A stretch of DNA of 64,000 nucleotides from Rhodopirellula bahusiensis (GTDB taxonomy: Bacteria > Planctomycetota > Planctomycetia > Pirellulales > Pirellulaceae). Position 1 is the first letter of the stretch. Every line of letters begins with the position of its first letter. The notes beneath the pieces were generated by a model that was not told the DNA's origin, made no database searches, and saw only the letters and a program-made list of their open reading frames with translations. Positions 1-39,523 of this stretch are shown piece after piece. The translations under genes were made by a program, and so were the position numbers. Location: assembly GCF_002727185.1 (NCBI RefSeq), contig NZ_NIZW01000021.1, forward strand, positions 1 to 64,000, given 5' to 3'.

Positions 1-90
1 ACCCACTGACTGGCGAGCCGTATGCGGGAGAACCGCACGTACGGTTCTGAGGGAGGGGAGTCCGGCTCAACCGGACTTCCCTACCCCTAT
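1..90 (+). mobile_element. 3' end of a group II intron (domains V and VI)
   Basis: Positions 15-48 read as a textbook domain V: a GAGCCGTATGCGG arm, a GAGA-type loop and a CCGCACGTACGGTTC return arm, 34 nt in all. Domain VI follows at about 51-88: a GTCCGG/CCGGAC stem with a CTCAA loop, then a lower GGGG/CCCC stem with an unpaired A near 83 that would be the branch-point adenosine. The intron ends at CCCCTAT (about position 90), matching the usual 3' AY end. The rest of the intron, and any intron-encoded reverse transcriptase, lies to the left of the window. What follows (CAGGTGCTGG) is identical to the second copy of the neighbouring repeat at 379, which fixes the 3' splice junction at 90/91. 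Confidence 0.88.
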
Positions 91-36300: not shown

Positions 36301-37788
36301 ATGCTCCCGCGATCTTGGTTGTTTCATCAGATGAGTCGAACTCCTTGCTGGTTGTTTGTCGGTTTGCTTTGTGGGTGCGGTCCCGTGGCTGTGGCCGACG
36401 ATTTCTTCCTGACGATTGGTGGCGGCTATTCGCCCTCCGGCAACCAGGCATCACTCGAGAACAATGTGATGTTTGCTCAGCGGGCTCTCGGCGAACAAGG
36501 TGTTTTGGGCGAACACAACGACATCTACTTTTCGGATGGCGATGCTGTCGGAAAAGACCTGCAGGTGATGGATCCGAATTCGGTTCCCAAAGCCAACCGG
36601 CTGATGGCGGAGTTCTTTGGCAGCGGCGATTCACTGGGACTGTCCTATCGGAACCATGCTATTCCCAAGGTGAACGGAAGCACCGAACCTGAAAACATTC
36701 GGGAATGGTTTCGCGGTGAGGGGCAGACGATGAAGTCGGGCGATCGGCTTTATGTTTACGTGACCGCCCACGGAAGTCGCAGCAGCGATCGCCAATCACC
36801 CTATGACACGACCATTGCGACTTGGAATAACAGTGCGATTCGCATGACCGAGTTTGTGAAGATGCTGGACGGTCTGCCTAAGGGAGTCGAAGTGGTTGCG
36901 ATCATGGTCCAGTGTCACGCGGGTGGATTTGCTCGATACATTTTCAATGAGGGGGATCCCGAGAAAGGGCTGTCAGAGCAGAATCGAATCGGTTTTTTCG
37001 CGACGGTGCACGATCGTCCCGCGTCCGGTTGCACGCCGGAAGTCGATGAGGCCAGCTACGTGGAATACAGCACTTACTTCTGGGCGGCGCTTTCCGGGCG
37101 AAATCGATCCGGCCGACTGATCGAACGCCCGGACTACGATGGCGATGGCGTGGTTTCGTTTGACGAAGCTCACGCGTACACGGTGATCACAGCGGACACG
37201 ATTGACTTGCCAGTCATGAGTTCGGGTGAATTTCTAAGCATTCACAGTTTCTTCGACGAAGACGATCCGAAGCTTTTGCGAAACGACGAGTCTTACGCGT
37301 TGATCCTGAGTTTGGCGACTCATTCTCAACGCGCGATCCTGGAAGGTTTGTCGGAGCAATTGAGTTTGACCGGAGATGGCCGGATCAACGATGCGTGGAA
37401 GAAATCTCAAGGCGATCAAGGTCGCGGTTCGAGCCGACGCCGACGACGCTCTTCGCCAGAAGACGGTTTGCGTCGTCGCATCACGAGAGACTTGGAACGC
37501 AAATGGCCGGAACTCGCCAACGTTCTCAACCCAGTGGCGATCGATCTTCTGACCAGTCGCAGTGATGAATTCGTCGAGGCGGTCGAGGATCACCCCGACT
37601 ATGCGCGTTACCGAGAATTGATGGACGCGGACGAAACGGACGATTCGAAGACCAAGGTCAAGTTCGAGCGTTTCATTCGCATCGCTGACAACGTTGCACT
37701 AGCGGAGAACTTGCGTCGACTTGGCGATGAGAAACTCATCGCTCAATTCAATGCCATCGTGGCCGCCGAAAGCGGTTCATTGAAGTAG
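36301..37788 (+). CDS. Exported caspase-fold (clan CD, C13-like) putative cysteine protease with EF-hand
   Basis: A 495-aa exported protein. The leader has a hydrophobic core (WLFVGLLCGCGPVAVA); an alternative start is the ATG at 36331. The mature start (DDFFLTIGGGYSPSGNQASLENN), the strand-ending motif YVYVTAHGS with His157, and VVAIMVQCHAGGF with Cys205 match the His/Cys dyad layout of clan CD (legumain, gingipain, caspase) peptidases. A perfect 12-residue EF-hand loop lies at 278-289 (D-Y-D-G-D-G-V-V-S-F-D-E). The C-terminal third is helical and has an arginine-rich patch (SSRRRRRSS). The protease call rests on motif spacing only; no target is apparent, and it is flanked by unrelated genes. 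Confidence 0.7.
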   Translation: MLPRSWLFHQMSRTPCWLFVGLLCGCGPVAVADDFFLTIGGGYSPSGNQASLENNVMFAQRALGEQGVLGEHNDIYFSDGDAVGKDLQVMDPNSVPKANRLMAEFFGSGDSLGLSYRNHAIPKVNGSTEPENIREWFRGEGQTMKSGDRLYVYVTAHGSRSSDRQSPYDTTIATWNNSAIRMTEFVKMLDGLPKGVEVVAIMVQCHAGGFARYIFNEGDPEKGLSEQNRIGFFATVHDRPASGCTPEVDEASYVEYSTYFWAALSGRNRSGRLIERPDYDGDGVVSFDEAHAYTVITADTIDLPVMSSGEFLSIHSFFDEDDPKLLRNDESYALILSLATHSQRAILEGLSEQLSLTGDGRINDAWKKSQGDQGRGSSRRRRRSSPEDGLRRRITRDLERKWPELANVLNPVAIDLLTSRSDEFVEAVEDHPDYARYRELMDADETDDSKTKVKFERFIRIADNVALAENLRRLGDEKLIAQFNAIVAAESGSLK

Positions 37789-37808: not shown

Positions 37809-38795
37809 TCAACTGATCGCGGATGTCCTATCCGTCGCGGACTCTTGTCTGACTCGGCGACGTCGGTTGATGGCAACGCCGATTCCGATACTCATCAGCA
37901 CCGCAAGCGAGCCCGGTTCGGGGACGGCCGTTGCGGTCGCGAAATTGTCCAACGCGAAGTATCCCGGGGTGTTCAAACCATACGGACCGACATCGCTGGA
38001 CGAAAGATTGAAGTGCAGACTTCTGGCATCGGACATCGAGGTGAGATCAATCGTCAACCAATCGTCCAAGATGAAATCTTGAAGTGAATCGGTGAAGCGG
38101 AAGTCAGCCAGGAACACTTCGATTGTTGTGTCGAGGATCTGATCGTTCGCATCGATCCCGAACACGGACAACTTGAAGAAGTCCGGGTCCGTCCCAGCGG
38201 GGCCGCCGAACTGCTTGGCGAACGAATCACCGTTGCTCATCGACAAACTCGCGTAGGTGGTGTTGCTCACATCAGCGCTGATCGCTTGCTCTCCGTCAGG
38301 CAGATAGATACTCGGCAGAGCGGTCAGGGTGTTGATGCTTGTTGGAGTTGAATTGGCGTATCCAAACGCCACTGCATAAGCATCGGAACCTCCTGATCCC
38401 GATCCCGGTGTCGCACTGTATTGGTTCGAGTAGCCGGGTGTGGTTGTGTCCGTGTGATTGGAAACCGCGAATCCACTCCAACTGCCGTAGAGGTCGTTGT
38501 AGCGGTTCGAAAAGTCGACACCATCGGCGGTGAAGACTCCAATATGATCGTTCCCTCCATAGGCACCGGGAACGATGGTCGCGTTCGCAACAGGGCCGTT
38601 GGAAACACCGGACCCGCCAAGATCTTGGCTTTCGAAATCGACCACCACATCGGCTTTGAGAACAGATAGAAAGGTCGGAAACGCTGAAATGAAAACGAGG
38701 ATGACTGTTAGAGCCAGCCACAGTGATTGATTGGATTGCGGAGCGTTTGCGGAAGTAGATGAACGGTGAAGGAGACTCGAGTGAAGCGTGCGCAT
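37809..38795 (-). CDS. PEP-CTERM surface protein with DUF4465 domain, under cobalamin control
   Basis: A 328-aa exported protein. A long signal region (hydrophobic core WLALTVILVFISAFPTFLSV, residues about 27-46) is followed by a DUF4465-type domain with YGSWSGFAVSNHTDTTTPGYSNQYSA. The C-terminus is a PEP-CTERM anchor: VPEPGSLAVLMSIGIGVAI then RRRRVR, which an exosortase would process. A clear cobalamin riboswitch lies 260 nt upstream in the same orientation, so the gene should be shut off when B12 is plentiful. That suggests a role in capture or handling of corrinoids at the surface. This role is inferred from the switch and the domain; the domain itself has no settled function. Confidence 0.85.
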   Translation of the reverse strand: MRTLHSSLLHRSSTSANAPQSNQSLWLALTVILVFISAFPTFLSVLKADVVVDFESQDLGGSGVSNGPVANATIVPGAYGGNDHIGVFTADGVDFSNRYNDLYGSWSGFAVSNHTDTTTPGYSNQYSATPGSGSGGSDAYAVAFGYANSTPTSINTLTALPSIYLPDGEQAISADVSNTTYASLSMSNGDSFAKQFGGPAGTDPDFFKLSVFGIDANDQILDTTIEVFLADFRFTDSLQDFILDDWLTIDLTSMSDARSLHFNLSSSDVGPYGLNTPGYFALDNFATATAVPEPGSLAVLMSIGIGVAINRRRRVRQESATDRTSAIS

Positions 38796-39523
38796 GAGTA
38801 GAAATCGAAATGTGAATCGCTTGGAATCACTCTTCGTCGGCGCATATCATCCCCAGCGTCTCCACCTCCGCTCATGAATTTTCAAAGCGAATGCGAGACG
38901 ATTGGCGTGGTGAACGCGTGCGACGAAAGCGGATTCAAAAGCTGATGACGGAAATCCAACGCGTCGAATGGGCATGCTCAATGAAAGGCATGGCACCAAT
39001 GCGGTAAGCGTTGCAACGTTCGCCCCAATCCAAGAAGGCAACAAAACGTCTTGTGCGAGGTAGGTCTTCTGACTCATCACCATTTTGTTCACTCATGGCC
39101 TTCTCACTCACGATCGCGTCACAACGCGAAAGCACGAGCAATGGCCGAATAGAAAAGCGAACAATGAGATCGACTTTCGAAGATCTCTGGCGGCACACAG
39201 CGGCCGGACCGTCCCGGAATTTCACCGGAGTTCCCTGTTCACTGATCTGGAAGAAACCAAACCAGTCACCTCGGACGTCGGCGATTCTAGCCACGAGACC
39301 ATGGCTGTCAACGCGTTTGTGAACCACCATTTTTCCTGGCCAACTGCTGATATCAAATTCGGATTCACGCGGCCCAGACTCGACCGCATCGCTTCGTCCG
39401 CGTTGCTCGCTCGGATCATTCTCGGCGGAGAAAGGAACGCGAAATGCATCACTGGCTTAGCAAGGATTGCTTCGTAGGTCGTTTCGTGTCGTCTCGTCAG
39501 TCCATTCTCTGCTGGTCCTTCTC
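38796..39523. other. 728-bp divergent region carrying the riboswitch
   Basis: This region lies between the PEP-CTERM gene (minus) and the dehalogenase (plus). 39056-39274 is the cobalamin riboswitch. 38796-39055 is its long leader and expression platform, with no convincing ribosome binding site or terminator that I could fold by eye. 39275-39523 must contain the promoters for both directions. Confidence 0.6.
39056..39274 (-). ncRNA. Cobalamin (adenosylcobalamin-type) riboswitch
   Basis: Read on the minus strand, the core matches the class closely: GGTGACTGG at the 5' end, then AACAGGGAACTCCGGTGAAA with TTCCGGGACGG, then CCGCTGTGTGCCGCCAGAG, and the 3' block GATGAGTCAGAAGACCTACC. The outer P1 stem can form from CGAGG near the 5' end and CCTCG at the 3' end. 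The switch binds a cobalamin and normally represses the downstream gene. It precedes only the PEP-CTERM/DUF4465 gene. Class I or II cannot be separated without folding. Confidence 0.93.

Follow-up and report, generated by a model that had tools for sequence, protein, structure and literature searches.

The stretch analysed here, called the window, comprises the first 64,000 nucleotides of contig NZ_NIZW01000021.1 of Rhodopirellula bahusiensis, and the subject of this report is a cobalamin riboswitch on its minus strand together with the DUF4465 gene that follows it. The locus showed the following features.

39284..39311, minus strand: sigma-70-like promoter, TTGACA-16-TAGAAT (consensus scan, 11/12 matches), overlapping the start of the aptamer match
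39042..39288, minus strand: cobalamin riboswitch aptamer, RF00174 (cmscan 64.2 bits, E 1.5e-13, model positions 1-189 of 189)
38796..39041, minus strand: leader between aptamer and start codon, candidate expression platform (folding z-score, terminator scan)
37809..38795, minus strand: DUF4465 gene of 328 aa, product predicted to be exported and PEP-CTERM sorted (open reading frame (ORF); PF14717)
38652..38795, minus strand: likely signal peptide, hydrophobic, residues 1-48, ending in ...FLSVLKA (by eye from the translation, with a putative cleavage site)
37941..38489, minus strand: DUF4465 (BtuJ-type) domain, residues 103-285 (PF14717, E 2.5e-54, 184.8 bits, cut-off 25)
37854..37925, minus strand: PEP-CTERM sorting signal (VPEPGS, hydrophobic stretch, RRRR), residues 291-314 (TIGR02595, 20.0 bits, cut-off 16)

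A first-pass annotation made from the letters of the window had placed a complete cobalamin riboswitch core at 39056-39274 and had suggested an Rfam run on the minus strand. This run returned a full-length RF00174 match whose 64.2 bits lie well over the gathering score of 31.5 bits, and the same match was recovered again at 39288-39042 in a whole-genome search. The place and strand of the proposed core were right, while the match itself is slightly wider. The ATG at 38795 lies 247 nt downstream of the aptamer on the same strand, and the DUF4465 gene is the next one on that strand. Both neighbours, a HAD hydrolase from 39467 or 39527 onward and a gene at 36301-37788, are on the plus strand, so the transcription unit is a single gene, as had been proposed. 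The position of the promoter-like site (39311-39284) suggests that transcription would start close to the beginning of stem P1; the consensus scan found three such sites in the 2-kb region, where 0.9 would be expected. A switch serving the plus-strand HAD hydrolase was rejected for the wrong strand, and two short ORFs overlapping the aptamer (39092-38847 and 39330-38935), known from the mechanical ORF list alone, were set aside as genes.

The PF14717 match and the TIGR02595 score above its cut-off agreed with the earlier description of the product as a PEP-CTERM protein of the DUF4465 family. Solved relatives in the Protein Data Bank (PDB) were 9hmu (best, phmmer E 7.9e-19), 9qpm and 9fct, and the relatives found by sequence include 9HMU, 9FCT and 9I2L, which are named as B12 complexes in PMC13398666. 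Tight cobalamin binding was reported for BtuJ1 and BtuJ2 of Bacteroides thetaiotaomicron (PMC12751083), and B12 binding was common to eight divergent DUF4465 proteins, namely BtuJ1, BtuJ2 and six further members (PMC13398666). One of the binding members, Pan, is from Mucisphaera calidilacus (PMC13398666), a planctomycete according to a look-up made here. The suggestion that DUF4465 may be a corrinoid-binding family was therefore correct, but it had already been published in 2025-2026 and is no longer new (PMC12751083; PMC13398666). The conserved pocket residues reported for BtuJ1 are Y146 and Y245 in the DE helix and HI loop (PMC13398666). In alignments to the PDB relatives, Y181 and Y279 of the window protein aligned with these two residues, and neither tyrosine varied among the 12 planctomycete domains aligned. 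B12 binding by the window protein is a prediction. Judged by its sequence, the gene is a convincing BtuJ/DUF4465 family member that is led by a riboswitch and carries a PEP-CTERM tail.

BtuJ1 and BtuJ2 share with the window protein the Pfam family, the conserved pocket tyrosines and riboswitch-regulated loci (PMC12751083; PMC13398666). However, they are described as lipoproteins encoded alongside other Btu genes, BtuB for instance, whereas the window protein ends in a PEP-CTERM tail and is encoded by a solitary gene in a genome with no TonB plug match and no FecCD permease over cut-off. D5EK51 of Coraliomargarita akajimensis (9hmu, the best PDB match of the window protein) and Pan are likewise DUF4465 proteins from outside Bacteroides that were shown to bind B12 (PMC13398666). 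The PEP-CTERM tail of the window protein has no counterpart as a topic in that paper, in which a word search for PEP-CTERM, exosortase, 'planctomyc' and DUF1559 found none of these terms.

Counting how often DUF4465 genes follow cobalamin switches, a check proposed with the first-pass annotation, was carried out in two sets. In a set of 343 planctomycete genomes that includes the window's own, nine carried DUF4465 (11 genes, 13 domain matches). Ten of the 11 genes were preceded on their own strand by an RF00174 match, at a distance of 320 to 2091 bases from the domain. The eleventh gene (G318) begins 128 bases from the start of its contig. One of the switch-led genes, at locus L014 of a genome of the same family (G333), had a similarly modest aptamer score of 60.6 bits. 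RF00174 was found in 298 of the 343 genomes (292 over cut-off) and is thus common across the phylum, so most planctomycete switches control genes other than DUF4465. The second set comprised 79 DUF4465 loci of named genomes, from the best 80 of 537 confirmed stretches, and switches were found there with a covariance model derived from 20 planctomycete switches, one of them the window's, and not with RF00174 itself. An upstream same-strand switch was present in 70 of the 79 listed loci, i.e. 44 of 47 planctomycete loci versus 26 of 32 others (grouped by record title), and none was found downstream of the DUF4465 domain in the DNA examined around them. Six of the nine misses (L116, L118, L131, L137, L165 and L183) had at most 1127 bases of upstream DNA. 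At the Zavarzinella formosa locus (L156, 4533-7644, minus strand), two minus-strand switch matches, also upstream, flank a MetE-like frame, which adjoins the plus-strand switch of the DUF4465 operon.

Eight of the nine single-domain genes in alignment A1 had a VPEP-type tail and one an IPTP tail (L094). With a crude pattern, PEP-CTERM-like tails were seen at the listed loci in 19 of 26 planctomycete frames shorter than 700 residues versus 0 of 11 Bacteroidota frames, rough counts in which some frames are cut and the wrong frame was taken for L114. More than 70% predicted lipoproteins are reported in PMC13398666. In planctomycete DUF4465 proteins, predicted PEP-CTERM tails appear to stand in place of lipid anchors.

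The genome assembly has 7.78 Mb in 63 contigs (completeness 99.96, contamination 3.7). Two RF00174 matches were found in it, at the window's site and on contig C10 (68.4 bits), and both exceed the cut-off. DUF4465 matches were limited to two open frames, each after one of the two switches. The second unit and a DUF6580 gene of a corresponding locus are given below.

L007:11186-3006, contig C10, minus strand: second cobalamin-switch operon, with the switch followed by DUF1559, a giant DUF4465 protein and DUF6580
L162:15589-16164, plus strand: DUF6580 gene of a locus with the same gene order

The DUF1559 protein of the second operon is pilin-like with an N-terminal methylation motif. The giant protein, 2029 aa long, combines three DUF4465 domains with a dockerin and a planctomycete extracellular motif, and the last gene encodes the DUF6580 protein, a membrane protein of 189 aa. 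The same order of switch, DUF1559, giant DUF4465 frame and DUF6580 was found in Rhodopirellula europaea 6C, R. sallentina and R. solitaria (L162, L167 and L177).

The genome encodes MetH (1609 bits against a cut-off of 1497, 979 residues scanned), and CbiC gave no match in it (controls positive in 7/14). By this marker, the organism would be a B12 user without de novo synthesis, which probably needs import. For the classical uptake genes, the TonB plug domain gave no match in the genome (controls positive in 3/14 genomes, including E. coli); the plug model does match the receptors L080 and L085 of relatives. L080, the switch-led TonB receptor of a relative, gave no match in the genome when used as query, in a search that had no positive control and whose empty result therefore shows nothing by itself. 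A BtuB-type receptor was set aside for this genome as both searches were empty. No FecCD permease over cut-off was found in the genome (controls positive in 13/14), and two matches at 25.1 and 22.8 against a cut-off of 26.5 were rejected as BtuC. The sub-cut-off ORFs (L190) resemble, by eye, metal permeases fused to a regulator. CbiQ/EcfT (PF02361) also gave no match in the genome (controls positive in 10/14). The absence of TonB and BtuCD components may be real, or it may reflect a gap in the draft assembly or the limit of sensitivity. B12-using bacteria without BtuFCD were already noted in a 2009 survey (PMC2667541).

Among relatives in the family, TonB receptors do follow cobalamin switches (L080 and L085 by Pfam; L082, L083 and L087 alike by eye). 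At the listed DUF4465 loci, with two planctomycete receptors as queries, a receptor was found in 0 of 44 planctomycete switch-bearing loci versus 11 of 32 non-planctomycete loci. A different arrangement was observed in genome G057 (L095:2571-8175, minus strand), where a single switch leads genes for DUF4465, a second family termed AGPY, DUF1559, a BtuF-like protein, an ATPase and a FecCD permease; the BtuF-like and FecCD assignments come from Pfam, those of DUF1559 and the ATPase from inspection by eye. In this unit, surface parts are joined to a classical ABC importer.

DUF6580 was found in 25 of the 343 planctomycete genomes, and in 13 of the 25 a switch lay upstream on the same strand, 69 to 7394 bases away. 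A rough binomial estimate for this linkage, treating related genomes as independent, was 2e-31. A universal link was rejected as it covered only 13 of the 25; of the rest, ten had no switch link, among them the six other genomes of the window's family in this set, in which DUF6580 is not beside a switch, and two had no detected switch. At L072 the unit consists of a switch, DUF1559, a small lipoprotein-like protein, DUF71, DUF6580 and a BtuF-like protein, with Pfam support; L073 and L076 carry the same type of unit by eye, and L079 is similar but lacks a clear small protein. DUF71 has been predicted to serve B12 salvage (PMC3541065).

The AlphaFold model of DUF6580, made for a relative's protein with a six-row alignment, has six helices with a mean pLDDT of 74.8. 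Its top Foldseek match was BtuM with cyanocobalamin, 8c7p (probability 1.00, E 0.042, TM 0.55/0.58). Ranks 1-14 were all BtuM or chains from ECF transporters and S-components, 4huq among them, and no match at any rank had E <0.001. A sequence profile (A3) gave no match to PDB chains up to E 10, so DUF6580 was not filed as a member of the BtuM family. BtuM of Thiobacillus denitrificans is solitary and S-component-like; DUF6580 resembles it in its predicted S-component fold and in occurring in a genome with no CbiQ/EcfT match, and differs in being a Pfam family of its own, with a best Foldseek E of only 0.042 and no match in sequence. In E. coli, a host that lacks an ECF module, BtuM was reported to support uptake of B12, and its cobalt ligand is a cysteine (PMC6072759). 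The L007 DUF6580 protein has a cysteine, C138, that is nearly invariant in alignment A3; positional equivalence to the BtuM cysteine is not implied. From fold and context, switch-linked DUF6580 is probably an S-component-like cobamide carrier. The literature search found no mention of DUF6580, and nothing for S-component, vitamin B12 and Planctomycet together.

The pilin-like part is the oddest element of the B12 regulon. DUF1559 genes are very numerous in planctomycetes. In the 44 planctomycete switch-bearing loci, a DUF1559 frame stood between switch and DUF4465 in 34, only after DUF4465 in six, and in neither position in four. By impression, its position between switch and DUF4465 looks too regular for chance. 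It might be speculated that DUF1559 carries B12 through the outer envelope.

The AGPY family, an otherwise unnamed one, adjoins DUF4465 or is fused to it, and the N-terminal part of the giant L007 protein aligns with it. Members were located as follows.

L095:6203-7327, minus strand: AGPY member
L092:4112-4969, plus strand: AGPY member
L140:8887-9864, plus strand: AGPY member

The AGPY profile matched the H-domain part of BtuG1 (8blw_B) with E 8.2e-4 and 21.9 bits over 87 chain residues. This part is a BtuH domain with its own B12 site (PMC10404256). The likeness to BtuH and to the BtuG1 H domain of B. thetaiotaomicron is a weak profile match to 8blw_B; on the other hand, only 87 chain residues match, and AGPY has no Pfam family in the members scanned. 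An argument from fold was set aside, as the AGPY model had a pLDDT of 62.1 and no Foldseek match with E <0.001. Its best matches were laminin, F5/8-type and CBM32-like domains and others, and no BtuH entry was named among the best 50. With this poor model, the BtuH likeness stands on the weak profile match. For the AGPY protein of L163, the match in the PDB search was confined to the C-terminal sorting tail (residues 255-330) and was discarded. Proteins of this family, marked by a GxGxDFAVFEN motif, were also seen beside DUF4465 in several phyla, some of them with a PEP-CTERM tail.

Overall, we consider it very probable that the window encodes a riboswitch-derepressed surface DUF4465 protein which captures cobamides within a small B12 regulon that includes a putative DUF6580 carrier. 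When cobalamin is scarce in the cell, the riboswitch would let the DUF4465 gene be expressed, repression by B12 being the expected mode. The protein would be exported and sorted to the cell surface by its PEP-CTERM tail, where it would presumably be anchored, and its loop pocket would capture environmental cobamides. The other unit of the regulon would supply the pilin-like DUF1559 protein, the giant protein (one BtuH-like part, three DUF4465 domains and a dockerin) and DUF6580 as the inner-membrane cobamide carrier. Passage of B12 across the outer membrane and its transfer to DUF6580 are conjectural steps of this scheme.

Several observations weigh against this account or parts of it. In the RF00174 alignment, the outer P1 stem contains several non-standard pairs, and the aptamer score is modest, below those of many other planctomycete switches (at least 100 bits). 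No terminator-like site was found on the minus strand between aptamer and start codon, no clear ribosome-binding site was seen by eye in the leader, and the region 38780-39060 was not unusually structured (folding z-score -0.03), which leaves the switching step without an explanation. Three of the 79 listed loci (L120, L130 and L160) had no switch match despite a full 10 kb of upstream DNA. In the genome search, 150 of 375 first-look candidates were scored and a third switch could have been missed. In genome G333 one cobalamin switch leads a DUF4465 gene and another leads a TonB-receptor-like gene (L083, L090), so DUF4465 is not tied to loss of TonB receptors. Finally, at L088:4397-7202 (plus strand) and L091:1860-4670 (minus strand), DUF6580 has no switch and its neighbours look by eye like potassium-uptake genes, which weighs against a B12 role for all DUF6580 proteins; the family may not have one role everywhere.

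The imperfect P1 stem, the modest score and the lack of a recognisable expression platform are what would be expected if the aptamer were a decayed or non-switching remnant, with a transcript unresponsive to B12 and a constitutive protein. This is improbable given a full-length RF00174 match well over the gathering score, a promoter-like site at the aptamer start and an arrangement repeated in 10 of 11 planctomycete DUF4465 genes, including the one in G333 with its comparable score. Slightly more weight, though still little, was given to a protein that stores, shields or withholds cobamides outside the cell as a decoy or matrix reservoir and does not feed the cell's own import. PEP-CTERM proteins are often matrix or surface proteins, and the missing TonB plug and FecCD matches fit such a role; however, a cell with MetH and no CbiC match would probably need import, and the sister operon encodes a membrane protein whose relative's model resembles BtuM. 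That the domain binds another ligand here, e.g. a porphyrin or glycan, and is merely co-regulated was judged the least plausible: the jelly-roll fold is common to many ligand binders and the similarity to solved members is moderate (the best phmmer match given above), yet the pocket tyrosines are invariant, and B12 was bound by eight divergent members, Pan of Mucisphaera calidilacus among them (PMC13398666).

With surface capture of cobamides by the DUF4465 protein as the preferred reading, what looks new is its context, a variant apparently without TonB receptors and BtuCD. We read it as a TonB-free variant of surface B12 scavenging, with predicted binding, switching and transport. A genome with MetH and without matches to CbiC, TonB plug or CbiQ or an over-cut-off FecCD, in which both detected switches lead DUF4465 genes, points to an unusual uptake route. 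A more far-reaching proposal is that Pirellulaceae like this one run a TonB-independent cobamide uptake, in which PEP-CTERM- and dockerin-bearing DUF4465 and BtuH-like proteins would capture the cobamide, a dedicated DUF1559 pseudopilin would help to pass it through the outer envelope and a solitary BtuM-fold DUF6580 carrier would take it across the inner membrane, all under cobalamin riboswitches. This is put forward tentatively, as a possibility that we doubt more than we favour, and it was marked down slightly because of the potassium-uptake-like neighbours of DUF6580 at L088 and L091. If it were true, B12 transporters would gain a new family in DUF6580, and a role could be assigned to DUF1559. 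The uptake question can be tested directly, with DUF6580 and one DUF1559 pseudopilin as concrete candidates.

Elsewhere in the window, the gene adjoining the DUF4465 gene at 36301-37788 (plus strand) encodes a protein of 495 aa for which Pfam gave no match at E 0.001. Positions 13-90 (plus strand), right where the window begins, matched the group II intron family RF00029 with 55.1 bits against a gathering score of 40.
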